DNA of 64,000 bases, taken from contig NZ_FUYX01000003.1 in NCBI RefSeq assembly GCF_900168195.1, forward strand, positions 372,001-436,000, in the 5' to 3' direction. The DNA is from Allobosea thiooxidans (GTDB taxonomy: Bacteria; Pseudomonadota; Alphaproteobacteria; Rhizobiales; Beijerinckiaceae). Shown here in pieces: positions 38,178-53,112 of this stretch. Made by a program: the position numbers and the translations under genes. The notes beneath the pieces were generated by a model. That model was not told the DNA's origin, ran no database searches, and saw only the letters and a program-made list of their open reading frames with translations. The number at the start of each line of letters is the position of its first letter. The first letter of the stretch is position 1.

Positions 38178-38195
38178 CGTTCTGTTTAGAGAACG
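38178..38195. promoter_or_regulatory. Palindromic operator candidate, copy 1
   Basis: CGTTCT-N6-AGAACG is an 18-bp palindrome 243 bases upstream of the substrate-binding protein start. It has the same arms and spacing as a second copy at 38327. Each site begins with AT on its left side (ATCGTTCT). The regulator is unknown. Confidence 0.55.
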
Positions 38196-38326: not shown

Positions 38327-38344
38327 CGTTCTTTTGAAAGAACG
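38327..38344. promoter_or_regulatory. Palindromic operator candidate, copy 2
   Basis: CGTTCTTTTGAAAGAACG has perfect 8-bp arms and repeats the CGTTCT-N6-AGAACG pattern of copy 1, 149 bases away. A TTGACG box at 38350, a possible -35, lies 5 bases after it, so a bound protein would be placed to control transcription. No good -10 was found. Confidence 0.6.
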
Positions 38345-38437: not shown

Positions 38438-39598
38438 ATGATCAGCCGTCGTCTCTTCCTGCAGACCGGTACCGCGACCATCGCCATTTCGACCGCCGGC
38501 GGCTTCGCCCAAGCCTCCGAACCGGCGGGCGAGCCGGTCTATCTCGGCGTCAGCGGCCCGCTGACCGGCCCCAACGCGCAATACGGCGCTCAATGGAAGC
38601 AGGGCTTCGACCTGGCGCTGGACCAGATCAACGGCTCGGGCGGCATCAAGGGCCGGCCGCTGCGCTACCTCTTCGAGGACACCCAGAGCGACCCGAAGCA
38701 GACCGTCGCGGTGGCCCAAAAATTCGTGGCGGACAAGCGCATCGTCGCCGAGCTCGGCGATTTCGCCAGCCCGGCCTCGATGGCCGCCTCCCCGATCTAC
38801 CAGCGTGCCGGCCTGGTCCAGTTCGGCCTGACCAACTCCCATCCCGACTTCACCAAGACGGGCGATTTCATCTGGAGCAACTCGGTCAGCCAGGCTGACG
38901 AGCAGCCGCTCAACGCCGCCTTCGCCGTCAAGCGGCTGGGCTTCAAGCGCATCGCCGTGCTCCACCTCAACACGGATTGGGGGCGCACCAGCAAGGACCA
39001 TTTCGTCGCCGCCGCGAAGAATCTCGGCGCCGAGATCGTGGCGACGGAAGGCTATCTGCCGGAGGAGAAGGACTTCCGCTCGACGCTGGTGCGGGTGCGC
39101 GACGCCAATCCCGACAGCCTGTTCCTCGTCTCCTACTATGCCGACGCCGCGCTGATCGTGCGGGCGGCGCGCCAGACCGGGCTTGCCGTGCCGGTGGCGG
39201 CTTCGAGCTCGATCTACTCGCCCAAATTCGTCGAGCTCGGCGGCGAGGCGGCGGAGGGCGTGTTCACCGCCGCCCGCTTCTTCCCGGCCGATCCGCGCCC
39301 GGAGGTGCAGACCTTCGTGACCAGCTTCAAGGCGAAGTACGGCAAGGAGCCGGACGCCTTCAACGCCTATGCCTACGACACCATGGTCCTGTTCGGGCAG
39401 GTGCTGCGCGAGGCGCCGGAGCTCGACCGCAGGACCGTCCGCGACACGCTCGCCCGGGTGAAGGACGTGCCGAGCGTCGTCTATGGCAAGGCGAGCTTCG
39501 ACACGAAGACGCGGCGCGTCGCCGGAGCGCGCAACGCCGAGCTCGTCGTCAAGGGCGGCAGCTTCACGCTCTGGGGCGGCGGCAAGGCGACGAACTGA
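38438..39598 (+). CDS. ABC transporter substrate-binding protein, branched-chain amino acid type, Tat-exported
   Basis: The 386-residue protein opens with SRRLFLQTG, a twin-arginine signal, and the mature part is a periplasmic-binding protein of the Leu/Ile/Val type (VYLGVSGPLTGPNAQYG, INGSGGIKGRPL, FNAYAYDTMVLFGQVL). It should capture a small ligand and pass it to the fused permease downstream. The true ligand is unknown; amides, urea and aromatic acids are also carried by this family. A family C repeat lies between it and the permease gene, and two palindromes lie upstream. Confidence 0.9.
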   Translation: MISRRLFLQTGTATIAISTAGGFAQASEPAGEPVYLGVSGPLTGPNAQYGAQWKQGFDLALDQINGSGGIKGRPLRYLFEDTQSDPKQTVAVAQKFVADKRIVAELGDFASPASMAASPIYQRAGLVQFGLTNSHPDFTKTGDFIWSNSVSQADEQPLNAAFAVKRLGFKRIAVLHLNTDWGRTSKDHFVAAAKNLGAEIVATEGYLPEEKDFRSTLVRVRDANPDSLFLVSYYADAALIVRAARQTGLAVPVAASSSIYSPKFVELGGEAAEGVFTAARFFPADPRPEVQTFVTSFKAKYGKEPDAFNAYAYDTMVLFGQVLREAPELDRRTVRDTLARVKDVPSVVYGKASFDTKTRRVAGARNAELVVKGGSFTLWGGGKATN

Positions 39599-39610
39599 CC
39601 CGCTTCGACG

Positions 39611-39714
39611 CCGTCATTGCGCGCGAAGCGAAGCAATCCAGGGGGAACGGCCTGAGCGGTCCAGTCCGGCCGCGCCCGGACTGCTTCGTCGGCTGCGCCT
39701 CCTCGCGATGACCG
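39611..39714. repeat. Palindromic intergenic repeat, family C
   Basis: It begins CCGTCATTGCGCGCGAAGC and has the reverse-complement-like end CTGCTTCGTCGG...CTCGCGATGACCG. It is more diverged than the copy at 20033. It lies between the binding-protein gene and the permease gene of one operon and could lower distal expression by forming a stem in the mRNA. Confidence 0.78.
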
Positions 39715-39747
39715 TCCTTTCGGTCCAATGCTTCAAGCGATCGTTTC

Positions 39748-41571
39748 ATGACCTCCTGGTTCGACCACACCATCAACGGCCTGATCATCGGCAACATCTA
39801 CGCCCTGCTGGCGGTGGGGCTGGCGCTGATCTTCGGCGTGAGCCGGCTGATCAACTTCGCCCATGGCTCCGTCTATGTCGTCGGAGCCTATGTCGGCTGG
39901 GTGGCGGTTTCCGTGCTGCATACCCCCTTCCCCCTGACGCTGGTCATCGTGGTCGCCCTGACCGCCGTGCTCGGCGTCGTGGTCGAGCGCTTCGGCATCC
40001 GGCCCTTGGCGGGCGCCCCGCGGATCGCGCCGCTGCTCGCCACGATCGGCCTGAGCTTCGTCCTCGACCAGACGGTGCAGATCCTGTTCAGTCCCGATCC
40101 CCGAGCGGTGCCGATGCAGCTGCCGAACTGGCGCGTCGCCATCGGCGGCGGCTCGATCGGCGTGCTCGACCTGCTGATCGGCGGCATCGGCATCACCGCC
40201 GCCAGCGCGCTCTTCGCCTTCCTCAAGCTGACGAAATGGGGCTGGGCCGTCCGCGCCACCGCGCTCGACCGCGATGCGGCCCGCGCGATGGGCGTCGATG
40301 TCGACAAGGTCAACAGCATCGTCTTCGCCGTCGCCTCGGGGCTCGGTGGCGTCGGCGGCGTACTGGTCGGCATGTATTACAACGTCATCACGCCGACCAT
40401 GGGCTTCGAGGCGACGCTGAAGGGCATCGTCGCCGAGGTGGTCGGCGGCGTCGGCAACGTGCCCGGCGCGATCGTCGGTTCGCTGCTGCTCGGCATCATC
40501 GAGAGCTACGGCGTCGCCCTGCTCGGCACGAGCTATCGCAACCTCTTCGCCTTCATCCTGCTGATCGTCATCCTCGTGCTCAGGCCGAACGGGCTCTTCG
40601 CCAGCCGCCGACAGCTGCCGCCCGAGCCGATGACCGGCACCTTCGTCGCGCCGAGCCGGCCGGTGCGCCTGCCCGTCCCGCTGGTCGCGGCGGCCGCCGC
40701 TTTGGCCATCGCCCTGCCCCTGCTGGTCGACAGCGGCTACCTGATCCAGACCCTGACCAATGTCTGGCTCTATGCGCTGCTGGGCCTGAGCCTGACGCTC
40801 GTCGCCGGCACCAGCGGGCAGGTCTCGCTCGGCCATGCCGCCCTGCTCGCCATCGGCGGTTACACCTCGGCGCTGCTGGCGCTCAACCTGGGCTGGCCGG
40901 TCTGGCTGACCCTGTTCTGCGGCGGCCTCGTCGCCGCGGCGCTGGGCACGCTGCTGGTCTCGCCGGCCTTCCGCCTGCGCGGCCACTATGTCTCGATCGC
41001 GACGCTCGGCATCGGCGAGATCGTCGCCCTGGTCATCCTGAACTGGGAGAGCGTGACGCGCGGGCCGATCGGCGTCGCCGGCATCCCGCCGCTCTCGCTC
41101 TTCGGCTACGAGCTCTACGACACCAACGCGATCTACTGGTTCGCCCTGGCGCTGATGGCGGCGCTGGCGCTGCTGCAGCTGCGCCTGCTCGGCTCGCATC
41201 TCGGCCGCACGCTCAGGGCGGTGCGCGACGACGATGTGGCGGCGCGTTCCTTCGGCATCGGGCTCAACCGCTACAAGGGGCTGGCCTTCGCCTTCGGCGG
41301 CTTCTTCGCCGGCCTCAGCGGCGCCTTCACCGCCCATATGTATTCCTACATCAACCACGAGACCTTCAACACGCAGATCTCGGTGCTGGCGCTGACCATC
41401 GCGATCCTCGGCGGCATGGGCAATGTCGGCGGCGCGATCCTCGGCTCGCTCGCTCTGATCGGGCTGCCCGAGGTGTTCCGCGTCGCCGCCGAGTACCGCA
41501 TCCTGCTCTACGGCATCGCGCTGCTGCTGCTCGTGCGCTTCCGGCCGCAGGGCCTACTCGGAACCGTCTGA
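39748..41571 (+). CDS. Fused branched-chain-type ABC permease (LivH-LivM in one chain)
   Basis: The 607-residue protein joins two permeases normally encoded separately. Residues 1 to about 285 match LivH (INGLIIGNIYALLAVGLALIFG, FGIRPLAGAPRIAPLLATIGLSF, GGVGNVPGAIVGSLLLG). A short hydrophilic linker (about 290-310) leads to LivM-like residues 315-607 (VAGTSGQVSLGHAALLAIGGYTSALL, FRLRGHYVSIATLGIGEIVALV, GMGNVGGAILGSLALIGLPEVFR). The fusion would give a single-chain heterodimer. No frameshift is involved; the frame is continuous. Confidence 0.9.
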   Translation: MTSWFDHTINGLIIGNIYALLAVGLALIFGVSRLINFAHGSVYVVGAYVGWVAVSVLHTPFPLTLVIVVALTAVLGVVVERFGIRPLAGAPRIAPLLATIGLSFVLDQTVQILFSPDPRAVPMQLPNWRVAIGGGSIGVLDLLIGGIGITAASALFAFLKLTKWGWAVRATALDRDAARAMGVDVDKVNSIVFAVASGLGGVGGVLVGMYYNVITPTMGFEATLKGIVAEVVGGVGNVPGAIVGSLLLGIIESYGVALLGTSYRNLFAFILLIVILVLRPNGLFASRRQLPPEPMTGTFVAPSRPVRLPVPLVAAAAALAIALPLLVDSGYLIQTLTNVWLYALLGLSLTLVAGTSGQVSLGHAALLAIGGYTSALLALNLGWPVWLTLFCGGLVAAALGTLLVSPAFRLRGHYVSIATLGIGEIVALVILNWESVTRGPIGVAGIPPLSLFGYELYDTNAIYWFALALMAALALLQLRLLGSHLGRTLRAVRDDDVAARSFGIGLNRYKGLAFAFGGFFAGLSGAFTAHMYSYINHETFNTQISVLALTIAILGGMGNVGGAILGSLALIGLPEVFRVAAEYRILLYGIALLLLVRFRPQGLLGTV

Positions 41572-41581
41572 GGAGATGCCC

Positions 41582-42490
41582 GTGACCGCTCCCTTCCCGC
41601 TGCCGGCCGCTGCCGCGCCCCATCCGCTGCTCGAAGCGCGTGGGCTGGTGCGCCGCTTCGGCGGCCTCACCGCCGTGGCCGGCATCGATCTCTCGATCGC
41701 CGCCGGCGAGCTCGTCAGCGTCATCGGCCCCAACGGCGCCGGCAAGACGACGGCCTTCAACCTGATCAGCGGCCTCGACCGCCCGGACGAAGGCTCGATC
41801 TGCTTCGACGGCGCCGACATCACCGGCCGGCCGCCCGAGGCCGTGGCCGTCGCCGGCCTCGTCCGCACCTTCCAGCACGGGCGCGTCTTCGCCAATCTGA
41901 GCGTGGCGGACAATGTCCTGGTCGGCGCGCATCGCCGGCTTACGGCCGTGCGCCCGGCCTGGCCGGTCGTCGGCCCGCTGGCGGAGCTGGCGCTCGCGCT
42001 GATCCGGCCGCCTTCGGTCAAGGCGGAGGAGGCGGCGCTGCGCGAGGAGGTCCGCGAGATCCTGGCGATCTTCGGCGAGCGGCTGCTACCCCGCATCGAC
42101 CAGCCGGCCTACAGCCTCTCCTACGCCAATCGCCGCCGCGTCGAGATCGCCCGCGCGCTGGCGGCCCGCCCGAAGCTCCTGCTGCTCGACGAGCCCACCG
42201 CCGGCATGAACCAGACCGAGACCGCCGAGATGCTGGAGATCATCGCCGCGCTGAAGGCGCGCGGCCAGACCATCCTGCTGATCGAGCACAAGCTCGACAT
42301 GGTGATGCGGCTCTCGGACCGCGTCGTCGTTCTCGACGACGGCCGGAAGATCGCCGAGGGCCTGCCGCTCGCCGTGCGCAACGACCCGGCCGTGATCGAA
42401 GCCTATCTCGGCCATGGCGCGGTCGGGAGCGCGGCCAGGGCGGGCGACGACGCGCCGTCGGCCGAGCAGCCCCTTCCCCTGTCCGCGTGA
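41582..42490 (+). CDS. ABC transporter ATP-binding protein, LivG type
   Basis: The protein of about 302 residues carries Walker A GPNGAGKTT, the ABC signature in LSYANRRRVEIARAL (a divergent form of LSGGQ usual in LivG), Walker B LLLLDEPTAGMN and an H-loop. I prefer the GTG at 41582, which has AGGAG 6 bases upstream; an ATG at 41576 directly abuts that site. It lies about 10 bases after the fused permease and 7 bases before the LivF-type gene. Confidence 0.9.
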   Translation: MTAPFPLPAAAAPHPLLEARGLVRRFGGLTAVAGIDLSIAAGELVSVIGPNGAGKTTAFNLISGLDRPDEGSICFDGADITGRPPEAVAVAGLVRTFQHGRVFANLSVADNVLVGAHRRLTAVRPAWPVVGPLAELALALIRPPSVKAEEAALREEVREILAIFGERLLPRIDQPAYSLSYANRRRVEIARALAARPKLLLLDEPTAGMNQTETAEMLEIIAALKARGQTILLIEHKLDMVMRLSDRVVVLDDGRKIAEGLPLAVRNDPAVIEAYLGHGAVGSAARAGDDAPSAEQPLPLSA

Positions 42491-42497
42491 GGCCGAG

Positions 42498-43232
42498 ATG
42501 AGCGAAACGCAGCCGATCCTCGCCCTGAAGGACATCGACACCTTCTACGGCCCCGTGCAGGCGCATTTCGGGCTTTCCCTCCATGTCGGGCAAGGCGAGA
42601 TCGTCAGCCTGCTCGGCGGCAACGCCAGCGGCAAGTCGACGACGATGAAGATCATCCTCGGCCTGGTGAAGCCTGCCGCCGGCGACGTGCTGGTCGGCGG
42701 CATCTCGACGCTGAAGCTGAAGACGCCGGAGATCGTGCGGCTCGGCGTCGGCACCGTGCCGGAGGCGCGGCGGCTCTTCGGCGCGATGAGCGTGCGCGAG
42801 AACCTGCTGATGGGCGCCTTCGTGCGCAACGACAAGGCCGGCATCACGGCCGATCTCGACCGCGTGCTCGGCCTGTTCCCGCGCGTCGCCCAGCGGTTGG
42901 ACCAGCAGGCCGGGACGCTCTCGGGCGGCGAGCAGCAGATGGTCGCGATGGCGCGAGCCCTGATGGGCCGGCCGCGCGTGATCATCATGGACGAGCCGAC
43001 CATGGGGCTCTCGCCGCTCTGGGTCGACCGCGTGCTGGAGCTGATCCGCCAGATCAACGGCCAAGGCGTCGCCATCTTCATGGTCGAGCAGAATGCGAGC
43101 CTGGCGCTCCAGATCGCCCATCGCGGCTATGTCCTGCAGACCGGCCGCATCGTTCTCGAGGGCAGGGCCGCCGACCTCCTGACCGATGCGCGGATCAGGG
43201 ATGCCTATCTCGGCGGCGCGGAGGCGGCATGA
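42498..43232 (+). CDS. ABC transporter ATP-binding protein, LivF type
   Basis: The 244-residue protein has Walker A GGNASGKSTT, signature LSGGEQQMVAMARALMG and Walker B VIIMDEPTMGLSP, in the LivF arrangement. It begins MSETQPILALKDIDTFYG. Together with the LivG-type partner it powers the fused permease. Its stop overlaps a 32-codon reading frame by 4 bases. Confidence 0.92.
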   Translation: MSETQPILALKDIDTFYGPVQAHFGLSLHVGQGEIVSLLGGNASGKSTTMKIILGLVKPAAGDVLVGGISTLKLKTPEIVRLGVGTVPEARRLFGAMSVRENLLMGAFVRNDKAGITADLDRVLGLFPRVAQRLDQQAGTLSGGEQQMVAMARALMGRPRVIIMDEPTMGLSPLWVDRVLELIRQINGQGVAIFMVEQNASLALQIAHRGYVLQTGRIVLEGRAADLLTDARIRDAYLGGAEAA

Positions 43233-43327
43233 CCCGGCAGAATCTGAAGATCGACCACGCCGGCATCGCCGCCGCCCCTCCCTCGCACCCGCAGCTTGCG
43301 CCGCAACGCGCGGTCGCCGACGCCTGA
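43229..43327 (+). CDS. Short reading frame of 32 codons, possible leader or remnant
   Basis: An ATG overlaps the stop codon of the LivF-type gene (ATGA) and leads to a 32-codon frame that ends in TGA at 43325-43327, 11 bases before the monooxygenase ATG. The product has no recognisable motif and is rich in Ala, Pro and Gln. It may simply couple translation between the two larger genes, or be chance. Confidence 0.35.
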   Translation: MTRQNLKIDHAGIAAAPPSHPQLAPQRAVADA

Positions 43328-43338
43328 AAGGTCACGCC

Positions 43339-44379
43339 ATGAGCGCGAAACGCCTCGGCTTCTTCACCCGCCTGCTCGACGACGCCCCGGCGGCGGAGCG
43401 CTACCGCCTCGCGGCCGAGCAGATCGTCCATGCCGAGCGCCACGGCTTCGACAGCGCCTGGGTCGCCCAGCATCATTTCCATCGCGACGAGGGCGGGCTG
43501 CCCTCGCCCCTGCCCTTCCTGGCCTATGTCGCGGCCCGGACCAGCCGCATCCGGCTCGGCACCGGCATCATCATCCTGCCGATGGAGGATCCGGTCCGCA
43601 CCGCCGAGGACACGGTCGTCGTCGACCTGCTCTCAGGCGGCCGCCTCGAAGTCGGGCTCGGCACCGGCGCGACGCCGGAGACCTTCCTCGCCTTCGGCCT
43701 CGACAAGGAGCAGCGCACGGAGATCTTCGCGCGCAACCTCGACAAGCTCCACGAAGCCTGGAGCGGCGCGGGGCTCGGCCATGAGCAGAACCGGCTCTAT
43801 CCAGAGGCCGGCACGTTGCCGCAGCGCACCTGGCACGCGACCTTCTCGGCCGCAGGCGCGGAGCGCATCGGCCGGGCCGGCGCCGGGCTGATGCTCTCGC
43901 GCACCCAGCCACGCAGCGCCGACAAGCCGGATGCGACGCTGCCCGAGATCCAGCATCCGATCATCGACGCCTATCTCGCCAACCTGCCGGCCGGCGTCGC
44001 CCCGCGCATCATGGCCTCGCGCTCGCTCTTCGTCGCCGACAGCCGCGCGGAAGCGCTGGGTCAGGCCGAGCGCGGCCTCAACCATGTGCTCGAGCGCTTC
44101 ATCGCCAGCGGCCACCGCATCGAGGACCGTAGCCTTTCCGGGCTGATCCGGACGCTCGACACCCATGTCGGCGCGCCCGAGGACGTCATCGCCTCACTCG
44201 CCGAGGATTCGGTACTGCCGCGGGCCACCGACGTGGTCTTCCAGGTGCATTCGGTCGATCCGCCGGCGCCGCTCGTCCTGCGCTCGATCGAGCTCACCGC
44301 CGCGATCGTCGCCCCGGCGCTCGGCTGGAAGGACAAACCCGCCGCGCCGCCCGTCCGGCTCGCCGCCGCCAACGCATGA
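43339..44379 (+). CDS. FMN-dependent luciferase-like monooxygenase
   Basis: The 346-residue protein is a bacterial-luciferase-family TIM barrel (MSAKRLGFFTRLLDDAP, DSAWVAQHHFHRDEGGLPSPLPFLAYVAARTSRIRLGTG, GGRLEVGLGTGATPETFLAFGLD). It most resembles the subgroup catalogued as KPN_01858-like putative FMN-dependent monooxygenases, from memory of the TIGRFAM naming. It should use reduced FMN and oxygen on an unknown substrate. The next two genes, CMD-domain and alkylhydroperoxidase, form a trio seen in unrelated bacteria. Confidence 0.85.
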   Translation: MSAKRLGFFTRLLDDAPAAERYRLAAEQIVHAERHGFDSAWVAQHHFHRDEGGLPSPLPFLAYVAARTSRIRLGTGIIILPMEDPVRTAEDTVVVDLLSGGRLEVGLGTGATPETFLAFGLDKEQRTEIFARNLDKLHEAWSGAGLGHEQNRLYPEAGTLPQRTWHATFSAAGAERIGRAGAGLMLSRTQPRSADKPDATLPEIQHPIIDAYLANLPAGVAPRIMASRSLFVADSRAEALGQAERGLNHVLERFIASGHRIEDRSLSGLIRTLDTHVGAPEDVIASLAEDSVLPRATDVVFQVHSVDPPAPLVLRSIELTAAIVAPALGWKDKPAAPPVRLAAANA

Positions 44380-44388
44380 GGTCCCCCT

Positions 44389-44988
44389 ATGAGCGTGCAA
44401 GACACCACCGACATCCTCGATCGCCTCGCCGGCGTCGTTCCCGGCTCGGCCCTTGATGCGCTGCGGCGCGAGCGCCCGCAGACGCGCGACAACGTGCAGG
44501 CGAGCTATGCCGCCCTGTTCGAGGCTCCCGACGAGACCGGCGTGACGCCGAGCGAGCGGCTGGCGGTCGCGAGCTTCGTCGCGCTGCTGCATGGCGGCGT
44601 TCCCGTCGCCGCGCATTACCTCGACCTGCTGGAAGCGCACCCCGATGGCGCAGCGCTCGCCGCGGCGATCCGCAACCAGGCCAGGCAGGCCGCCGGGAGC
44701 GGCCCCTACGGCGCCTATCCGCCCGGGCCGCTCTCGCGGGAGGACGTGGCCGGGCCGGTCTTCGCCGTGGAAGGTGCCGACCGCGCCGCGCTGGGCGAGC
44801 GGCTCTCAGCCGCGCTGGCGCATGCGCATCGACTCGTCCTGCATCCGCGCGATGCGGCAGCTGCCGATCTCGCCGCCTTGCAGACGGCCGGCTGGAGCAC
44901 GGCGGCGATCGTCACGCTCTCGCAGCTCGTCGCCTATCTCGCCTTCCAGATCCGCGCCGCGCATGGCCTGCGCGTCCTCGCCGCCTGA
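44389..44988 (+). CDS. CMD-domain protein (Avi_7170-like)
   Basis: The 199-residue protein is helical and fits the carboxymuconolactone-decarboxylase-like families, especially the group I recall as CMD_Avi_7170. Segments include SYAALFEAPDETGVTPSERLAVASFVALLHG and TAAIVTLSQLVAYLAFQIRAAHGL. It lacks the CxxC of redox-active AhpD proteins in the visible sequence. Function is unknown. It lies 9 bases after the monooxygenase gene and 18 before the next. Confidence 0.8.
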   Translation: MSVQDTTDILDRLAGVVPGSALDALRRERPQTRDNVQASYAALFEAPDETGVTPSERLAVASFVALLHGGVPVAAHYLDLLEAHPDGAALAAAIRNQARQAAGSGPYGAYPPGPLSREDVAGPVFAVEGADRAALGERLSAALAHAHRLVLHPRDAAAADLAALQTAGWSTAAIVTLSQLVAYLAFQIRAAHGLRVLAA

Positions 44989-45006
44989 ACCCGACGGAGC
45001 ACGACG

Positions 45007-45609
45007 ATGAGCGATATCACTCTCGAGCGCCCGGCCGCGACCGCGCCGAACGCCTTCACCCAGGCCGAGCTCGGCTGGGAAGCCTGGATCGATCCGGTTC
45101 CCGAGGCGGCACTGACCGAGCGGCAGAAGGAAGGGCTGGTCGATATCGCGCGCGCCAAGAGCGCGTATTTCCGGCTGCTCGCGCATGACCCGGACATCCT
45201 TCGCGCCCGCACGCTGGCCGACAAGGACATCTTCTACAACAGCCGCGCCGGCCTGCCGCGCGCGGAGCGGGAACTCGCCGCGGCCGCCGTCTCGCGCAGC
45301 AATGGCTGCATCTACTGCGCCTCGGTGCATGCCCGCTTCGCCAGCACCTTCTCGAAGCGCAGGGACGACGTCCAGCGCCTGCTCGACGAGGGCACCGGCG
45401 TCGATATCGACCCGCTGTGGAACGCGGTGATCGAGGCCTCCGTCGCGCTGACCGCGACGCCGATCGCCTTCGGCCCCGAGCATGTCCGCAAGCTGCGCGA
45501 TCTCGGCCTCGACGATCTCGCGATCGCCGACCTGATCCACGCCGCCTCGTTCTTCAACTGGGCGAACCGGCTGATGCTCTCGCTGGGCGAGCCGGAAACG
45601 CAGGCCTGA
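45007..45609 (+). CDS. Alkylhydroperoxidase-domain protein (Avi_7169-like)
   Basis: The 200-residue protein carries the AhpD-type redox motif: Cys101 and Cys104 (NGCIYC) with His108 three residues on, preceded by the acidic helix ERELAAAAVSRS. It should reduce peroxides or act as a thiol-based partner of the monooxygenase. It starts MSDITLERPAATAPNAF. It ends the trio and meets the alpha/beta hydrolase gene head to tail; both stop within 26 bases of each other. Confidence 0.85.
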   Translation: MSDITLERPAATAPNAFTQAELGWEAWIDPVPEAALTERQKEGLVDIARAKSAYFRLLAHDPDILRARTLADKDIFYNSRAGLPRAERELAAAAVSRSNGCIYCASVHARFASTFSKRRDDVQRLLDEGTGVDIDPLWNAVIEASVALTATPIAFGPEHVRKLRDLGLDDLAIADLIHAASFFNWANRLMLSLGEPETQA

Positions 45610-45635: not shown

Positions 45636-46514
45636 CTACCACTGCGGCGCGCCACTCGCCTTCCCGAGTTCCTCCGGCCCGGGCAGCCGGTTCTCGAACC
45701 AGAGCGCGGCGGCGGCGCGCGACATCGCGGCCCCGTCATGGCCGATGCCCGGCACGACGGTGAGCTGCCAGTTGCAGGGCAGACCGCGCCTGGCCGCCTC
45801 ACCCTTCGCGAACTCGTACATGAAATGCGCCCGGCCGAAGCGATGTGGCCCCTGCGCCAGCGCCTCGGGATTCGAGGGCAGGTTCGGATCCTCGGTCGCG
45901 ATGTCCTGGTCGCCGGCCAGGATCGTCATCGGATAGGCGAGCCAGCGCGCGATCGCGCGCTCGTCGAGGCCGAGATTGCCGAGCCCCTCGGGAAAGGGCC
46001 GCTCCAGCGTCGGCAGCGTGTACCAGCCGGGATTTCCGGCCATGGCCGCCTCGTAGGAGCCGGCCTCCTGCGTGGCGAGCAGGCGGTGAAGGAACTGGCC
46101 GCCGGCCGAATGGCCATAGATCTTGACCTGCGTGCGCCGCGTGACGCCGCCGGCCCTGAGCGCGGCGAGCACCCGCTCCGGCACGGCATAGAGCCAGGCC
46201 TCCGGCGGCGCGACGGCGCCATCGGCGTCAAGCACGAGCCCGTTGTTGTAGCCGTGCGCGCCCTCGAAATGCGTGGTGCCGAAGGTCGGCGCGACGATCA
46301 GCAGGTTGTGCTTTTCGGCCGCGTCGATCCAGAAATCGCGATAGTCGTCGCCGTTGCGCATCATGCCGTGCTGGACGAAGACGACCTCGTCGTCGGGCTC
46401 GTGCCGCTCGGGGCGGTAGAAATTGATCTCGAGCGGGCGCTCGGGATGCTGCGCATCGATGAAGGGCACGCTCCCGCGGCCGCGGGGGAGCGTCAGCGTC
46501 GTGGTGGTGGTCAT
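45636..46514 (-). CDS. Alpha/beta hydrolase, putative esterase
   Basis: The 292-residue protein shows an alpha/beta-hydrolase layout: oxyanion region FVQHGMMRNGDDY, nucleophile elbow GHSAGG (Ser near residue 155), acid candidate in ILAGDQD and a C-terminal histidine in GIGHDG. It resembles secreted or lipase-like esterases, but no signal peptide is evident. It is translationally coupled (4-base overlap) to the last ATPase gene of the oligopeptide-type transporter and so probably acts on the imported compound. Confidence 0.8.
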   Translation of the reverse strand: MTTTTTLTLPRGRGSVPFIDAQHPERPLEINFYRPERHEPDDEVVFVQHGMMRNGDDYRDFWIDAAEKHNLLIVAPTFGTTHFEGAHGYNNGLVLDADGAVAPPEAWLYAVPERVLAALRAGGVTRRTQVKIYGHSAGGQFLHRLLATQEAGSYEAAMAGNPGWYTLPTLERPFPEGLGNLGLDERAIARWLAYPMTILAGDQDIATEDPNLPSNPEALAQGPHRFGRAHFMYEFAKGEAARRGLPCNWQLTVVPGIGHDGAAMSRAAAALWFENRLPGPEELGKASGAPQW

Positions 46515-47518
46515 GCGGCGTCCTGGATGCTGTGCAGGTGGCAGGCGGCGCTGCGGCCGGGCGCGATCTCGACGAGTTCGGGCCTGACCTGCCGGCAGAC
46601 CGGCATGGCCTGCGGGCAGCGCGGGTGGAACGGGCAGCCGGGCGGCGGCGCGAGCGGCGACGGCATCTCGCCGGAGACGGGCTCGAAGCTGCGCTTGCGA
46701 CGCTGAGCCGAGGGAATCGCCTTGATCAGCGCGGCGCTATACGGATGCGCCGGCTCGGCGAAGACGTCCTGCGCCGGCCCGATCTCGACGATGCGGCCGA
46801 GATACATGATCGCGACGCGGTCGCTGATGTGGCGCACCAGCCCGAGATCGTGGCTGACGAAGAGATAGGTCAGCCCGCGCCGCTCACGGATGTCCATGAA
46901 CAGATTGATCACCTGCGCCTGGATCGAGACGTCGAGCGCCGAGACCGGCTCGTCGCAGACGAGAAAGTCGGGCTTGACCGCGAGCGCGCGGGCGATGCCG
47001 ATGCGCTGGCGCTGGCCGCCGGAGAACTGATGCGGGAAGCGGTCGCGATAGGCGAGATCGAGCCCGACCTCGCCGAGCACCTGGTCGACCGCGGCATCGA
47101 TCTCGCGGGGCGGCACCAGCCGGTGGACCGCGAGCGCCTCGCCGACGATGCGGCTCACCTTCATCCGGGGATTCAGGGAGGCATGCGGGTCCTGGAAGAT
47201 CATCTGGACCTTCAGCAGGAAATCCAGCCGCTCCCGGCCCTTCAGCGTCGAGACCGGCCGGCCGTCATAGACCGCCTCGCCCTCGCTCGGCTTCAGGATG
47301 CCGGTGGCGATCCGCGCGAGCGTGGACTTGCCGCAGCCGGATTCGCCGACGAGCCCGAGCACCTCGCCCTTCATCACCGCGAGATCGACGCCGTCGACCG
47401 CCTTCAGCGTCCGCGGCGGTTCGCCCTGCCCGATCGCCGCCAGCAGCCGCTGCGCGATGTTGGCCTTGCCCTTGAAGTGCTTGCGGATACCGCGCAGTTC
47501 GAAAAGAGGCGCGCTCAT
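46511..47518 (-). CDS. Oligopeptide-type ABC transporter ATP-binding protein, OppF/DppF-like
   Basis: The 335-residue ATPase has Walker A GESGCGKSTL, Q-loop, signature FSGGQRQRIGIARALA and Walker B DFLVCDEPVSALDVS. Its C-terminal Fe-S-like segment CPFHPRCPQAMPVCRQVRPE is typical of the Opp/Dpp ATPases. It overlaps both neighbours by 4 bases. Confidence 0.92.
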   Translation of the reverse strand: MSAPLFELRGIRKHFKGKANIAQRLLAAIGQGEPPRTLKAVDGVDLAVMKGEVLGLVGESGCGKSTLARIATGILKPSEGEAVYDGRPVSTLKGRERLDFLLKVQMIFQDPHASLNPRMKVSRIVGEALAVHRLVPPREIDAAVDQVLGEVGLDLAYRDRFPHQFSGGQRQRIGIARALAVKPDFLVCDEPVSALDVSIQAQVINLFMDIRERRGLTYLFVSHDLGLVRHISDRVAIMYLGRIVEIGPAQDVFAEPAHPYSAALIKAIPSAQRRKRSFEPVSGEMPSPLAPPPGCPFHPRCPQAMPVCRQVRPELVEIAPGRSAACHLHSIQDAA

Positions 47519-48507
47519 GGGGTCGTCACCATCGGCTGCGCCGGGTTGTGGCAGCGGAACTGGCGGGCGCCGTCGAACGTCGGCGGCGGATCGATCTCCG
47601 CACAGACGGGCAGCGAGCGGGGGCAGCGCGGCCGGAACGGGCAGCCGCTCGGGCGCGAATCGATGCGCGGCGCCATGCCCTCGATCTGGTTCAGCCGGCC
47701 ACCAGGCGCGACCAGCGTCGCCGAGGAGCCGAGCAGGCCCTGGGTATAGGGATGGCGCGGCGCGTCGAGGACAAGATCGACCGGGCCGGTCTCGACGATG
47801 CGGCCGGCATACATCACCGCGATCCGGTCGGCGAGCTCGGCGACCACCGCGAGATCATGCGTGATCCAGATCACCGCCGTGCCGGTCTCGCGCGCGAGCT
47901 TCTGCACCTCGTAGAGGATCTGGCTCTGGATCGTGACGTCGAGCGCCGTCGTCGGCTCGTCGGCGATGATCAGGTCCGGCTCGTTGAGCAACGCCGTCGC
48001 GATGGCGACACGCTGGCGCATGCCGCCGGAAAACTCGTGCGGGAACTGCTTCAGCCGGGCCTCGGGCGACGGGATGCCGACCCGCGCCAGCGCCTGCGCC
48101 GCCAGCTTCAGGGCCTCGGCGCGCGGCATGGCGCGGTGCTCGAGGATCGCCTCCGCCATCTGCTCGCCGACGCTGAGCACCGGGTTCAGCGTCATCAGCG
48201 GATCCTGGAAGATCATCGCGATGCGGTCCCCCCGCAAGGCGCGCAGGCGCTCGGGCGTCGCCGCCCGCAGATCCTCGCCCTTGAAGGCGACGCTGCCCTG
48301 GATGATCTCGCCGGGCGGGTCGATCAGCTGGACCAGCGAGAAGCCCGTCACCGATTTGCCGGAACCGGATTCCCCGACGAGGCCGAGCACCTCGCCACGC
48401 GACACCGAAAGATCGACGCCGTCGACCGCGGGCCAGGCGCCGTCGAGCGCATGGAAGACGGTGCGCAGGCCGCGCACCTCGAGCAGGGTCTGCGCGTCGG
48501 CGTTCAC
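47515..48507 (-). CDS. Oligopeptide-type ABC transporter ATP-binding protein, OppD/DppD-like
   Basis: The 330-residue ATPase has Walker A GESGSGKSVT, signature FSGGMRQRVAIATALL and Walker B DLIIADEPTTALDVT. The C-terminal CPFRPRCPRSLPVCAEIDPP is the Opp/Dpp-specific Cys-containing tail. It is the partner of the downstream OppF-like subunit and overlaps it by 4 bases. Confidence 0.92.
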   Translation of the reverse strand: MNADAQTLLEVRGLRTVFHALDGAWPAVDGVDLSVSRGEVLGLVGESGSGKSVTGFSLVQLIDPPGEIIQGSVAFKGEDLRAATPERLRALRGDRIAMIFQDPLMTLNPVLSVGEQMAEAILEHRAMPRAEALKLAAQALARVGIPSPEARLKQFPHEFSGGMRQRVAIATALLNEPDLIIADEPTTALDVTIQSQILYEVQKLARETGTAVIWITHDLAVVAELADRIAVMYAGRIVETGPVDLVLDAPRHPYTQGLLGSSATLVAPGGRLNQIEGMAPRIDSRPSGCPFRPRCPRSLPVCAEIDPPPTFDGARQFRCHNPAQPMVTTP

Positions 48508-49391
48508 GAGCGCACGTTCAGGCTGCGGCGCAGCCTGTCCCCGACGAGATTGAGCGACATGATCAGCAATACCAACGCGATACCGGGGAAGACGGCGATC
48601 CAGTATTCGCCGGAGAGCAGGAACTCGAAGCCGTTCGCGATCAGCAGGCCGAGCGAGGGCTGCGTCACCGGCACGCCGACGCCGAGGAAGGACAAGGTCG
48701 CCTCCAGCGTGATCGCGCCGGCGATGCTGATCGAGGCGACGACGAGCACGGAGCCGATGGCGTTCGGCAGCAGATGCGCCAGCATGATGTGCCGGGTCGG
48801 CAGGCCGAAATTGACCGCGGCCTCGATATATTCCTTACGCCGCTCGACCAGCGCCGAGGCCCGCATCAGCCGGGCGTACTGCGCCCATTGGACCATCACG
48901 ATCGCGAGGATGACCTTGTCGACGCCGCGGCCGATCGAGGCGAGCAGGACGAGCGCGACCAGGATCGAGGGGAAGCCGAGCATGAAGTCGACGACGCGCA
49001 TGATCGCGGCGTCGATCGCCCCGCCGAACTGAGCCGCCATCAGCCCCGCGGCGACGCCGATGACGAGCGCGCCGAGCGTCGCCGAGAGCCCGACCATCAG
49101 GCTGGTGCGCAGGCCGTAGAAGATCGCCGACAGCATGTCGCGCCCCTGGGCGTCGGTACCGAGCCAATAGGTCATCCCGTTCATGGCGGTGGCGCCCGGC
49201 GGCAGGCGATTGTCCATGACGCTGAGCGAGGCGAGGTCATGCGGGTTCTGCGGCGCGATCACCGGCGCCAGCAGCGCGAGCGCGACGAGGATGCCGAGCA
49301 GGATCGCGGCGCCGCGCAGGGTGGGCCTGCTGCGGATCCGCCGCAGCACCTTCTCGCGCAGTGGCGTCATGGCTTCGGGGGCGATGCTCAT
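48504..49391 (-). CDS. Oligopeptide-type ABC transporter permease, OppC/DppC-like
   Basis: The 295-residue permease starts with a cytoplasmic Arg-rich segment, then six helices. Typical OppC elements are MTYWLGTDAQGRDMLSAIFYGLRTSL and the ATPase-contact EAA-like loop EYIEAAVNFGLPTRHIMLAHLLPN. It overlaps OppB and OppD genes by 4 bases each. Confidence 0.92.
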   Translation of the reverse strand: MSIAPEAMTPLREKVLRRIRSRPTLRGAAILLGILVALALLAPVIAPQNPHDLASLSVMDNRLPPGATAMNGMTYWLGTDAQGRDMLSAIFYGLRTSLMVGLSATLGALVIGVAAGLMAAQFGGAIDAAIMRVVDFMLGFPSILVALVLLASIGRGVDKVILAIVMVQWAQYARLMRASALVERRKEYIEAAVNFGLPTRHIMLAHLLPNAIGSVLVVASISIAGAITLEATLSFLGVGVPVTQPSLGLLIANGFEFLLSGEYWIAVFPGIALVLLIMSLNLVGDRLRRSLNVRS

Positions 49392-50365
49392 GCGCTGTCT
49401 CCCGCAAGCTTCACGCGCGGATCGAGCGCGGCGTAGAGCACGTCGACGAGGAAATTGACCGAGACGAAGAGCAGCGTCGCCAGCATGACGTAGGCGACGA
49501 CCACCGGCCGGTCGAGCTGGTAGATCGAGTCGATCAGGAGTTTGCCCATGCCGGGCCAGGCGAAGACCGTCTCGGTGATGGTCGAGAAGGCGACGAGGCT
49601 GCCGAACTCGATGCCGACAACCGTGACGACCGGGATCAGGATGTTGCGCAGCACATGGCGGCCGACGATGCGGCGGGGGCGCACGCCCTTGGCGCGGGCA
49701 TAGCGGACATAGTCCTGCCCCATCGCCTCGCTCGTGCCGGCGGCAACGAGCCGCGTCAGCAGCGCCATGTTCGGGATCGAGAGGTTGAGCGCCGGGAGGA
49801 TGAGATGCTTCAGCCCGTTGGCGGTCAGCAGGCTCGTCTGCACGCCGAGCACGCTCACCGTCTCGCCCCGCCCCGCCGTCGGCAGCAACCCGAGCACCAC
49901 GGAGAAGAGCAGGATCAGCATCATCCCCTTCCAGAAATTCGGCAGGGAGAAGCCGAGCACCGTGCCGGCCATGATCAGCCGCGACGGGCGGCTGTCAGGA
50001 TCGAGCCCGGCATAGAGGCCGAGCGGCACGCCGACGAGGATCGCGAGCGCCATCGCCAGCAGGACGAGCTCGACCGTCGCCGGGAGCCGCGCCAGGATGA
50101 GCTCGATGGCCGGCACGCCATGAACGAAGGAGCGGCCGAGGTCGCCCTTGAGCGCATTGGCCATGAAGGTGAAATATTGCTGCCAGACCGGCAGGTCGAG
50201 ACCCAGGCGCTGGATCAGCGCCTGCCGCTCGGCATCGCTGACCTGCGGCGGAACGAGGAGCTCGATCGGGTCGCCGATGCCGTAGACGGCGAAGAACACC
50301 ACGACCGAAACCGCGAGCAGCACGAAGACGCTCTGGATCAGCCGCTGCAGGACAAAGGCGGTCAT
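49388..50365 (-). CDS. Oligopeptide-type ABC transporter permease, OppB/DppB-like
   Basis: The 325-residue permease begins MTAFVLQRLIQSVFVLLAVSVVVFF and contains RRIVGRHVLRNILIPVVTVVGIEFGSLVAFSTITETVFAWPGMGKLL, the classic OppB ending. The ATG at 50365 is chosen because the sequence upstream is GC-rich stem-loop DNA. Confidence 0.92.
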   Translation of the reverse strand: MTAFVLQRLIQSVFVLLAVSVVVFFAVYGIGDPIELLVPPQVSDAERQALIQRLGLDLPVWQQYFTFMANALKGDLGRSFVHGVPAIELILARLPATVELVLLAMALAILVGVPLGLYAGLDPDSRPSRLIMAGTVLGFSLPNFWKGMMLILLFSVVLGLLPTAGRGETVSVLGVQTSLLTANGLKHLILPALNLSIPNMALLTRLVAAGTSEAMGQDYVRYARAKGVRPRRIVGRHVLRNILIPVVTVVGIEFGSLVAFSTITETVFAWPGMGKLLIDSIYQLDRPVVVAYVMLATLLFVSVNFLVDVLYAALDPRVKLAGDSA

Positions 50366-50486
50366 GGCACTTGTCTTCCGTGATGGGGTGTCGCCCCGAA
50401 GCCCGGGCTCCGGAACGCGCCGGCGGTGGCCTGGCTGGCGCGGACCTGGCCATTCGCTGGCCCGCGCGAACCTCCGCCGGAAACGC

Positions 50487-50514
50487 CCCGGGCCAGGGCG
50501 AGACCCGGCCCGGG
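50487..50514 (-). promoter_or_regulatory. Stem-loop between binding-protein and permease genes
   Basis: An 8-bp stem CCCGGGCC/GGCCCGGG plus a 3-bp inner GGG/CCC around a CGAGA loop lies 14 bases past the binding-protein stop codon. No T run follows, so it looks like an mRNA-stability or partial-termination stem, often seen after binding-protein genes, rather than a full terminator. Confidence 0.6.
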
Positions 50515-50528
50515 AGCGCGAAGGTGCC

Positions 50529-52139
50529 TCACTTCGCCGGCTTGACCGACATGGCGAGCGTGAACTGATCGGCGCGGCCGGTGACCTTGTACTCGGCCTT
50601 CGAAGCCCAGATCGTGCTTTCGAAGTGCAGCGGGATGAACGCAGCCCCTTCCAGCACGCGCGCGCCGGCCTTCTGCAGCAGCTGGTCGCGCTTGGCATCG
50701 TCGAGGGTCTGGATCGCCTCGCGGATCAGCTTGTCGAACTCGGCATCCTGCCAGCCGCCATAGTTCGAGCCGCCGATGGTCTTGGCCTCGTCGGGCGTCG
50801 CCGCCCACTGGCGCAGGAAGGACGAGGCCTCACCGGTGCCCGAGCCCCAGCCGCCGATCGCGACCGAGAACTCCTTCTTGGCGCGGCGCGGGAAGTAGAT
50901 GGCGCGCGTCATCGCGTCGACATCGGCCTTGATGCCGACCTGGGTCAGGTACTGCGCGACCGCCTGGGTGATCTGGCCGTCATTGATGTAGCGGTCATTG
51001 GTCGAGGAGAGCGTGACCTGGAAGCCGTTCGGATAGCCCGCCTCGGCGAGGAGCTTCTTGGCCCCGGCGGGGTCGTACTTGATCGCCGGCGGGTTGGGCA
51101 GCGTGCCGAACATGCCCGTCGGCAGGAACTGGAAGGCCGGCTGCGCGGCGCCGTCCATCAGACGCTTGACGATGGCGTCGCGGTCGATGGCCATCGACAT
51201 GGCGCGGCGAACGCGGACATCCTGCAGCGGGTTCTTGTCGTTCTCGGCCTTGACGAAGGGGCTCGGCGCGCGGGCGACGTCGAGCTGGAAGTAGATCACG
51301 CGGGTCGACGGCGTGATCACGCTGGCGAAGCGCTTGTCGTTGGCGATCCGGCCGAGGTCGCGGGCAGCCGGGTTCTCGATCACGTCATAGTCGCCGGCGA
51401 GCAGGCCGGCGAGGCGCGGGCCTGCATTGGTGACGGGCACGAAGCGCACGCTGGCCCAGGGCTCCTTGCCGCCCCAATAGCTGTCGTTGCGCTCCAGCTC
51501 GATGGCGGAACCGCGCACATAGCTCTTCAGCTTGTAGGGGCCGGTGCCGATGGCGGAGCTGCCGTCATTGAAGGTCGACAGCGTCGGCCATTCGCCGGTC
51601 ACGCCGCAATTCTTCTCGACGTCGAAGGACAGCTTGTCATGCTTGGCGAGCCCGGAGCTGATGATGCCGACCGTGCCGACCAGCGTCGGCAGCAACGGTT
51701 CCGGCTGCTTGGTCTCGATCACGATGGTATGGGCGTCGGGCGCCGTCACCGCGGCGAAGTTGCCGGTGACGTCGGCGAAGGAGCCGGTGATCTTGGTCTC
51801 GTTCTTCAGCGTGCGGCAGAAGGTGAAGATCACGTCGTCGGCGGTGAAGGGCTTGCCGTTTGTGAAGGTCACGCCCTGGCGCAGCTTGAACGTCCACTTG
51901 TTCTTGCCGTCGTTCTCCCAGGAGGTGGCGAGACCGGGCTTGACCTTCTGCTGCTCGTCCTGCGACGTCAGCCCGTCGAAGAGATGGGCTGCAAGGGCAT
52001 TGTTCGGCGAGAGGTCATGGTAGTGCGGATCGACCGCCGTCGGCTCGGAAGCGAGCGCGATCCGCAGCGTCTGGGCCGCGGCGGGGCCCGCCAGGAAGCA
52101 CACGCTGGCCATCAGCGTGGTCAGAAGAGTGGTGCGCAT
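50529..52139 (-). CDS. ABC transporter substrate-binding protein, family 5 (peptide/nickel type)
   Basis: The 536-residue protein has a signal peptide (MRTTLLTTLMASVCFLAGPAAAQ) and the SBP_bac_5 fold: ATSWENDGKNKWTFKLRQGVTFTNGKPFTADDVIFTF, the EAGYPNGFQVTL hinge and a C-terminal AAFIPLHFESTIW. It would capture an oligopeptide-like or other hydrophilic ligand. It is the first gene of the oppABCDF-type operon and lies divergent to the RpiR regulator. A related family is also known from clusters with LLM monooxygenases in Klebsiella. Confidence 0.92.
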   Translation of the reverse strand: MRTTLLTTLMASVCFLAGPAAAQTLRIALASEPTAVDPHYHDLSPNNALAAHLFDGLTSQDEQQKVKPGLATSWENDGKNKWTFKLRQGVTFTNGKPFTADDVIFTFCRTLKNETKITGSFADVTGNFAAVTAPDAHTIVIETKQPEPLLPTLVGTVGIISSGLAKHDKLSFDVEKNCGVTGEWPTLSTFNDGSSAIGTGPYKLKSYVRGSAIELERNDSYWGGKEPWASVRFVPVTNAGPRLAGLLAGDYDVIENPAARDLGRIANDKRFASVITPSTRVIYFQLDVARAPSPFVKAENDKNPLQDVRVRRAMSMAIDRDAIVKRLMDGAAQPAFQFLPTGMFGTLPNPPAIKYDPAGAKKLLAEAGYPNGFQVTLSSTNDRYINDGQITQAVAQYLTQVGIKADVDAMTRAIYFPRRAKKEFSVAIGGWGSGTGEASSFLRQWAATPDEAKTIGGSNYGGWQDAEFDKLIREAIQTLDDAKRDQLLQKAGARVLEGAAFIPLHFESTIWASKAEYKVTGRADQFTLAMSVKPAK

Positions 52140-52185
52140 AAGATTTCTCCGTTCCCTTGCCGATCCGGCGATTTTGACAGGTATT

Positions 52186-52211
52186 TTTTCATCCCGTAAT
52201 CATCATGAAAA
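52186..52211. promoter_or_regulatory. Inverted repeat in the divergent RpiR/ABC region
   Basis: TTTTCAT-N12-ATGAAAA, 7-bp arms, lies between the binding-protein gene and the RpiR gene, in the only AT-rich part of the 100-base gap. A TTGACA box sits beside it at 52174. It is a good candidate operator for the adjacent RpiR protein; not proven. Confidence 0.5.
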
Positions 52212-52239
52212 TTTTAGTTCGTCAATCGGTGGTCAAGCG

Positions 52240-53112
52240 ATGATCCACGCCCTGAAGCCGACCACCGATCTCGCCAATCGGATCGCCCGCATCTACCCCT
52301 CGCTGAGCAACGGCCACCGCCGGATCGCGGACCATGTCCTGGGCTTCCCGCTGGAGAGCGCCACCGCCTCGATCGAGGTGCTGGCGGAACGCAGCGGCGC
52401 TTCGAACGCGACGGTGACACGCTTCGTGCGAGCGCTCGGCTATGCCTCCTATGGCGAGTTCCGGGTCGCGCTCTCGGACGCGCTGAGGCTCGCCATGCAG
52501 CCCGTCGACGACTTTGCCGATGCGCGGGCGATGACCGAATCCGCCAGCGGCACCTTCATCGCGGCGCTCAAGATGCAGCGCGCCAATATCGAGGAGGCGA
52601 TGGCCGCCCTCGACCCGGCCAGCATCGCCGGGCTCGTCGCCGCCATCCTCGGGGCCCGCCGGATCTTCATCATCGCCTCGGGAGCGAGCCACCACGTCGC
52701 CAGCTTCATCGAGGACGGCCTGGCCCTCTATTGCGAGGCCGACGTCGTCTTCGCCACGGCGCGGGGCGGGCCGGAGCGGGCCTTCCGGCACCTCAACGCC
52801 GCCGGGCCGGGCGACCTGACGATCGCGATCTCGGTGCCGCGCTATTCGCGCACGACCGTGCAGCTCGCCTCGCACAGCCGGGAGAAGGGCGCGACCGTGG
52901 TGGCGCTGACGGACGGACCGACCTCCCCGCTGGCCCCGATCGCCGATTTCGCGCTGTTCGCGCCGGCGCGCAGCCCGCTCCTGCCCAATTCGCCGACCGC
53001 CGTCTTCGCCCTGGCGGACGCCCTGATCACGGCGATCGCGCGTGAGCGACCGGATGCCGTCGAGGCTCTGAAGGATCTCAGCCGCAGCCTGCTCTGGACC
53101 TTCCAGCACTGA
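52240..53112 (+). CDS. MurR/RpiR family transcriptional regulator
   Basis: The 290-residue protein has an N-terminal HTH_6 domain (residues 1-80: NRIARIYPSLSNGHRRIADHVL, LAERSGASNATVTRFVRALGY) and a C-terminal SIS sugar-phosphate-binding domain (about 120-270: FIIASGASHHVASFIEDGL, ISVPRYSRTTV). It probably senses a phosphorylated sugar or related metabolite and controls the divergent ABC operon. It begins MIHALKPTTDLAN at the ATG at 52240. Confidence 0.88.
   Translation: MIHALKPTTDLANRIARIYPSLSNGHRRIADHVLGFPLESATASIEVLAERSGASNATVTRFVRALGYASYGEFRVALSDALRLAMQPVDDFADARAMTESASGTFIAALKMQRANIEEAMAALDPASIAGLVAAILGARRIFIIASGASHHVASFIEDGLALYCEADVVFATARGGPERAFRHLNAAGPGDLTIAISVPRYSRTTVQLASHSREKGATVVALTDGPTSPLAPIADFALFAPARSPLLPNSPTAVFALADALITAIARERPDAVEALKDLSRSLLWTFQH

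Follow-up and report, generated by a model that had tools for sequence, protein, structure and literature searches.

The ssuEADCB and tauABCD operons each pair an ATP-binding cassette (ABC) importer with an oxygenase that liberates sulfur when sulfate is limiting. Another described arrangement, the KPN_01854–KPN_01858 type of operon, consists of a TIGR04028 binding protein, oligopeptide-type (Opp) permeases and ATPase, and three enzymes of the hypothetical families TIGR04027, TIGR04029 and TIGR04030. Here, we analyze a 64,000-nucleotide stretch of Allobosea thiooxidans (contig NZ_FUYX01000003.1, positions 372,001 to 436,000; hereafter, the window) that carries, at 38438–45609 on the plus strand, an operon in which these three enzymes follow a transporter of the branched-chain (Liv) type. 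The enzymes are a luciferase-like monooxygenase (LLM), a CMD-domain protein and an AhpD-like protein, which we refer to as the trio. The operon is very probably a sulfur-scavenging one; its association with sulfur control is well supported, through operator-like palindromes that also precede sulfur genes in related bacteria.

The likeness to ssu and tau lies in the layout, an ABC importer beside an oxygenase, which in ssu is also of the LLM type. However, the importer here is Liv- or Opp-type rather than SsuABC or TauABC, the LLM is not SsuD, a CMD–AhpD pair is added, and no flavin reductase gene was recognised in the cluster. Operons of the KPN_01854–KPN_01858 type have the same three enzymes in the same order, and their Microvirga and Alsobacter versions carry the same control sites, but their Opp-type importer belongs to a different class from that of the window. 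The window transporter has the domains of the E. coli Liv/HAAT system (Peripla_BP_6, BPD_transp_2 and LivG/LivF-type ATPases), yet its permeases are fused, it falls below the LivH, LivM, LivG and LivF cut-offs, and a glutamate is replaced by serine. The same LLM family includes Klebsiella PCX02514 (PDB 8K74), to which a sulfur-free polymer has been assigned as substrate in the accessible part of the report (PMC11354265).

The genome around the window comprises 5.37 Mb, and the closest relatives of its LLM are found in Bosea (87–89%). The operon consists of seven genes, separated by gaps of 149, 4, 7, 106, 9 and 18 bp:

38438..39598, plus strand: Liv-type (Peripla_BP_6) substrate-binding protein, 386 aa (domain match)
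39748..41571, plus strand: fused LivH–LivM permease, 607 aa, with two BPD_transp_2 stretches (domain match)
41576..42490, plus strand: LivG-type ATPase, 304 aa (profile/domain match)
42498..43232, plus strand: LivF-type ATPase, 244 aa (start moved from 42414)
43339..44379, plus strand: luciferase-like monooxygenase, LLM, TIGR04027, 346 aa, homologue of PDB 8K74 (profile match)
44389..44988, plus strand: CMD protein, TIGR04029, 199 aa, without cysteine, predicted AhpD-like fold (profile match, model)
45007..45609, plus strand: AhpD-like protein, TIGR04030, 200 aa, with a full E..C-x-x-C...H motif (profile match, motif)

Starts at 42498 for LivF and at 43339 for the LLM are the more likely ones. 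All three enzymes exceed the curated cut-offs of their families (TIGR04027, 532.1 bits against 412.9; TIGR04029, 194.1 against 100.75; TIGR04030, 281.7 against 233.15) and are neighbours in the expected order. An earlier reading made from the sequence only had proposed seven or eight plus-strand genes with short gaps, the LivH–LivM fusion and the identity of the trio, and was borne out, with seven genes.

Comparison of the upstream regions of Liv-type loci led us to a palindrome, GTTCTTTNNAAAGAAC, with two copies ahead of the window operon:

38328..38343, no strand: proximal operator-like palindrome GTTCTTTTGAAAGAAC, just 5′ of a TTGACG −35-like hexamer (pattern scan)
38179..38194, no strand: distal operator-like palindrome GTTCTGTTTAGAGAAC, with two mismatches to GTTCTTTNNAAAGAAC (pattern scan)

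The proximal copy, GTTCTTTTGAAAGAAC, lies 95 bp 5′ of the operon and the distal one, GTTCTGTTTAGAGAAC, another 149 bp upstream; 38328–38343 is the only site with at most one mismatch in the genome. With up to three mismatches, the pattern matched six times in the window, at three places; none of 100 shuffles reached this number. We then considered 100 LLM loci. Eighty of these were the top scorers among 582 candidates retrieved with a query headed by the window protein, which tilts the sample towards its relatives; the palindrome test covered 90 of the 100. Within 600 bp 5′ of the first gene, sites with at most two mismatches occurred in all 15 operons of the Bosea-type, Microvirga and Alsobacter group (four Liv-type and 11 Opp-type), 11 of which, including that of the window, had at least two. 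At a threshold of one mismatch, sites were found in eight of these 15 operons versus none of the 75 outside the group. Proximal and distal sites, where both are listed, start 128–172 bp apart. Control DNA (60 regions, 1.19 Mb) yielded no match at one mismatch and two at two mismatches. An operator common to all lineages was not found, the Rhizobiaceae having a different element, and no conserved upstream palindrome was detected in the Rhizobium, Ensifer, Bradyrhizobium, Serratia and Pectobacterium groups. The other element, approximately ATAGNATANTAAATCNATAGA, is shared by Rhizobiaceae trio operons shortly 5′ of the TIGR04028 gene (L083 4702, L087 4704, L133 4725, L162 6731 and others).

The sites were then surveyed in 12 genomes chosen from the group that has the palindrome, which contained 55 forward sites with at most one mismatch versus two for the reversed pattern. 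Forty-one of these were read; of the other 14, seven precede trio operons already seen and seven were left out. Twenty-eight of the 41 lie within 600 bp of the starts of sulfur genes, namely metZ (O-succinylhomoserine sulfhydrylase; six sites), metQ (six), metY (O-acetylhomoserine sulfhydrylase; five), cysJ (three), and genes for sulfate binding proteins (four) and sulfonate-type binding proteins (four). One further site precedes a gene for a GsiB-like binding protein (545 bits, cut-off 594) and one lies 594 bp before metN–metI. Overall, 30 of the 41 sites read are at sulfur genes, the shared control site that marks a sulfur-starvation regulon, and one precedes a trio operon (L274). For Bosea and its close kin (three genomes), five of the six non-trio sites are at sulfur genes (L248–L252 of L248–L253). 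At locus L080, whose LivHM is 89% to that of the window, the order is cysD–cysN, a site, cysP–cysT–cysW–cysA, DUF2849, sulfite/nitrite reductase, DUF934, two sites and the trio operon, which thus comes directly after a sulfate-assimilation cluster. In B. caraganae, a gene for an SsuD-like monooxygenase (233 bits, below the 518 cut-off) stands just upstream of the operon. Separately, the palindrome overlaps the predicted start of acsA (acetate–CoA ligase) in two Microvirga genomes (L239 and L261), an unexpected member of the regulon.

A candidate for the regulator at these sites is an Lrp/AsnC-family protein. Its gene diverges from the trio operon in five of 10 Microvirga loci (72–77% to the copy in L240) and also stands beside cysJ at three sites (62–67%), beside a metQ-like gene in L240 and beside a flavin reductase gene in L256. 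A relative (71%) in G639, a genome of the same genus as that of the window, diverges from an SsuA-type gene. No Lrp/AsnC gene was found near the operon in L078–L080 or in the window.

The same sites could instead serve general thiol or oxidative-stress control, with the trio detoxifying a peroxide or an electrophile and the transporter importing a thiol or an amino acid. This is improbable: the CxxC motif is complete in every AhpD-like sequence examined, a 1-Cys peroxiredoxin gene is divergent to a sulfate binding-protein gene at three sites, and the liv operons of Variovorax and genome G106 include OsmC, but most genes at the sites read serve sulfur uptake or methionine and cysteine biosynthesis, and a monooxygenase with an importer would be an unusual set for detoxification.

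The wider surroundings of the trio also bear on the sulfur-scavenging function. We searched 83 loci (those shorter than 19 kb were left out) for SsuD, SsuA, SsuE, TauA, TauD, SfnB, NtaA-type LLM and similar markers, and found them in 13 of the 83 versus none of 60 control regions, which were not lineage-matched (p 0.0007; the loci are not independent). Four of the 13 depend on 27–31% matches to SsuE, and these weak matches, in 4/83 loci, are what the search for a flavin reductase by SsuE similarity returned; recurrent groups of non-transporter, non-trio genes (at most 10 loci each) are unannotated, and a reductase may be among them. SfnB-family genes occurred within 30 kb of the LLM in six of 50 genomes versus 1.01 expected (P 0.0004). 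In Allorhizobium ampelinum S4, the trio stands beside tau genes together with SfnB-like and SsuD-like genes (both below cut-off), and on a Variovorax plasmid a relative of the Liv transporter lies near SfnB, NtaA-type LLM and TauD genes. Iron limitation is stated to raise both KPN_01858 and TauC in the accessible part of one study, which is at most suggestive of a sulfur-starvation regulon (PMC7194016). Full-text searches, with most subscription papers outside their coverage, returned no report linking the trio or the palindrome to sulfur.

Among the enzymes, the LLM shows clear homology to PCX02514 (7e-122), for which a crystal structure and NADPH-dependent oxidation of poly(acrylic acid) with a kcat of 0.00214 per s have been described, with Arg10, Arg125, Ser186, Arg187 and His253 as proposed active residues (PMC11354265, accessible part). 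The equivalents of four of these in the window LLM (R11, R126, S187 and R188) are invariant in 11 aligned LLMs, and the positively charged pocket would suit sulfonates as well as carboxylates. The SsuD model TIGR03565 was not among the 25 NCBIfam families matching the LLM (E up to 0.001). The published activity raises the alternative that the LLM functions as a monooxygenase of carbon chains, with poly(acrylic acid) or comparable polycarboxylates as substrates, and that the operon is a carbon-source pathway. We regard this as very unlikely: although the assayed protein is homologous to the window LLM, its turnover was very low, FAD, FMN and FMNH2 failed to support the reaction, unlike in known LLM enzymes, and the accessible part of the report does not weigh the operon context (PMC11354265). 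Moreover, a high-mass polymer would hardly pass through either ABC transporter, and the shared sites point to sulfur.

Turning to the other two enzymes, the CMD protein is free of cysteine in 71 of 72 sequences and has a CxxC in none of the 72, and the E..CxxC...H active-site motif of AhpD peroxidases is present in 70 of 70 AhpD-like proteins. CMD–AhpD fusions occur in enterobacterial loci (n = 23); in all 23, the AhpD half has the motif and the CMD half lacks CxxC. Their existence suggests that CMD and AhpD act as one complex. A model of the CMD protein (mean predicted local distance difference test score, pLDDT, 83.7) resembles AhpD-fold proteins with a Foldseek probability of 1.00, with no match at E ≤0.001.

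The binding protein contains a twin-arginine-like SRRLFLQ motif, which may be a twin-arginine translocation (Tat) export signal, and its best solved match is 3hut, a putative branched-chain amino-acid type protein. Its domain content is that of the Liv/HAAT family; the acidic residue expected of that family is missing. At the position of the LivK/LivJ glutamate (GPEG), which presumably binds the α-ammonium group of the ligand, the 12 Liv-type sequences have serine (six, including the window) or glycine (six) and never an acid. A plain α-amino acid is therefore a less likely ligand.

We next turn to how the trio is distributed over transporters. Each of the 100 LLM loci was labelled by the transporter genes found up to 9 kb from the LLM and on its strand: 83 were Opp-type, 13 Liv-type, none both, three had none and one was cut by a contig end. 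CMD or AhpD was scored absent in six of the 100 (contig end or real absence). The sequence-only reading had named an oligopeptide-type transporter as the habitual partner of the trio, correctly as these numbers show, and had held that recurrence with Liv-type transporters would support a pathway and that trio homologues always lacking one would speak against it; in fact, Liv-type neighbours occur at 13 loci, with two gene orders, and the LLM tree places them in at least two separate lineages. The transporter class is exchanged and the enzymes are kept. Binding proteins like annotated TIGR04028 proteins were found at 77 of the 83 Opp-type loci; of the six remaining ones, five have their LLM no more than 3.5 kb from where the available sequence ends. 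The Liv-type loci are those of the window, Bosea and kin (L078–L080), genome G106 (L073), a Bradyrhizobium bin (L118), Bradyrhizobium (L157) and six from genus g41, which clusters with L157 in the LLM tree. The transporter comes first in the Bosea type, and the trio comes first in g41 and L157. Seven trio-first loci (L062–L066, L068 and L157) have, upstream of the LLM on the opposite strand, a divergent gene for an oligopeptide-type binding protein (26–32% to references), and the window and L078 have a separate Opp cassette, so the absence of loci with both transporters applies to the LLM's strand and to the 9 kb span.

On two LLM trees, which retained 80 and 44 sequences, the Liv label requires four changes each, and supported branches force at least two (80 rows) and at least three (44 rows), counts that give no direction of transporter change. 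A single Liv-type clade was rejected by the approximately unbiased (AU) test (p = 0.000575); joining the Bosea-type rows with L073 alone was not rejected (p 0.11). Based on the label counts and this test, two separate pairings of a Liv-type transporter with the trio are firm, and four are our best estimate from the trees.

The LivHM fusion is retained in all 11 aligned sequences (the window and 10 relatives). A LivHM profile (E ≤1e-200) detected seven genomes in a draw of 297 by order, all seven with LivHM beside the trio, and nine in a draw of 398 by phylum, seven of them beside the trio. The exceptions are G418, which has the trio elsewhere, and G597, a weaker match without an LLM, in which LivHM adjoins an AhpD-like gene and an FAD oxidoreductase gene. 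The trio is rare, with TIGR04027 above its cut-off in 16 of the 398 genomes and TIGR04029 in 11 of the 297; no LLM of the TIGR04027 family was found in G639. Relatives of the Liv transporter without an adjacent LLM are present in four plasmid records (Azospirillum, Variovorax, B. multivorans and P. caribensis); on the Variovorax plasmid, an LLM is found at a distance of about 60 kb, and in the other three records the transporter adjoins an AhpD-like gene and an FAD oxidoreductase gene. That transporter and trio are independent genes and chance neighbours, as these records and the distance between the two in G418 might suggest, is hardly credible given the adjacency in 7/7 and 7/9 genomes of the two draws, the two gene orders, the repeated pairing on the LLM tree and the substitute enzyme genes in three of the four plasmid records. 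As a separate observation, variant loci L158, L160, L161, L165, L076 and L077 have an AhpD-like gene and an FAD/NAD(P) oxidoreductase gene in place of the LLM, with CMD recognised in L158, L160, L076 and L077; the same or a related Liv transporter is present in four of these loci and absent from two.

The window holds a second, convergent cassette at 45636–53112, absent from the sequence-only reading, with genes for RpiR, OppABCDF and an uncharacterised hydrolase-like protein. Its OppA reaches 103.2 bits against TIGR04028 (cut-off 468.5), and the trio's partner here is the Peripla_BP_6 protein, so the trio operon of the window is not a TIGR04028-containing Opp operon. Genome G639 holds the complete cassette (OppA–F and hydrolase at 73–88% identity, RpiR at ~64%); no trio was seen in the 20 kb read around it, and the LLM search of that genome was negative. 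Because the binding protein is not the usual partner of the trio and a trio-free copy exists in G639, the cassette was ruled out as the real transporter of the trio and is treated as a separate locus. The other Liv paralogues of the window genome (L170 and L171) are distant (~29–39% identity).

A transcript boundary between the LivF-type gene and the LLM would have spoken against a single pathway in the sequence-only reading; none is predicted, a consensus scan of this gap having detected no plus-strand terminator-like or sigma-70-like site. The gap contains one short frame:

43229..43327, plus strand: 32-codon frame with VOC-domain-like ends, a possible deletion remnant (comparison with Bosea sp. 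BH3 and B. caraganae)

A VOC-domain gene, labelled after its annotated Variovorax relative, sits between LivF and the LLM in these two Bosea genomes. Nine of 13 residues of the window frame match the start of the VOC protein, and the frame also resembles its final residues. Because both ends are represented, the frame is likely a deletion remnant of the VOC-domain gene. Relatives of this gene also come after LivF in G106 and in the Variovorax liv operon. Others stand directly after the trio in several Opp-type loci (strong relatives at L148 12307 and L121 12371; weaker ones at L093 12276, L120 12266, L096 12370 and L105 12350), and therefore the VOC protein may be an optional fourth enzyme of trio systems.

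We propose that sulfur scarcity would cause a regulator at the GTTCTTTNNAAAGAAC sites, for which the Lrp/AsnC protein of Microvirga is a candidate, to switch the operon on. The Liv-type ABC transporter would import an organosulfur compound that is probably an anion and unlikely to be a plain α-amino acid, and the LLM, using reduced flavin from a reductase encoded elsewhere, would oxidise it. By analogy with SsuD and SfnG, the sulfur would leave as sulfite or a similar species; release of sulfite is the likeliest reaction of the LLM, though we advance it tentatively. In relatives, the genes of the CysJ/sulfite-reductase and MetZ/MetY route, into which the sulfite would pass, bear the same site. 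AhpD, paired with the cysteine-free CMD, would probably reduce a peroxide or a reactive sulfur intermediate arising from the oxygenase. The import-and-oxidise pathway of the sequence-only reading gains from the recurrent Liv pairing; its description as complete is premature, with no flavin reductase recognised in the window's cluster. A fuller proposal is that GTTCTTTNNAAAGAAC is the operator of an undescribed, Lrp/AsnC-run sulfur-limitation regulon of Bosea-type bacteria and Microvirga, and that the LLM and a CMD–AhpD heteromer have been swapped between Opp-type and unrelated Liv-type importers that deliver the same organosulfur compound, with the promoter architecture kept; we consider its chances evenly balanced.

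Several observations weigh against a sulfur-scavenging function. Outside the Bosea-type, Microvirga and Alsobacter group, the palindrome is missing (at most two mismatches in two of 75 operons, both at about −505 with two mismatches), so the sulfur link there comes from gene neighbourhood. Many of the genomes are from one genus and are not independent, and 10 of the 41 sites read lie near acsA (two), a RutF-like flavin reductase gene in Microvirga alba (one), unassigned genes (two) or nothing recognised (five). The examined surroundings of the window operon contain no other sulfur gene, and 70 of the 83 loci lack any of the markers searched. No SfnB-family gene was found within 30 kb in 19 other genomes, and SfnB was rejected as a universal neighbour (6/50 and 0/19 genomes), leaving it as weak support. 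The published assay of the Klebsiella homologue gives a different substrate (PMC11354265, accessible part). Finally, the proximal palindrome scores as a terminator-like hairpin in the consensus scan; its recurrence before unrelated sulfur genes argues for an operator rather than a terminator.

The sulfur-scavenging function would give the hypothetical families TIGR04027, TIGR04029 and TIGR04030 a testable physiological role, one that differs from the single published substrate claim we found. The exchange of transporters narrows the substrate to what both Liv-type and Opp-type binding proteins can hold. The palindrome, in turn, represents a candidate sulfur regulon with a candidate regulator in soil- and plant-associated bacteria.

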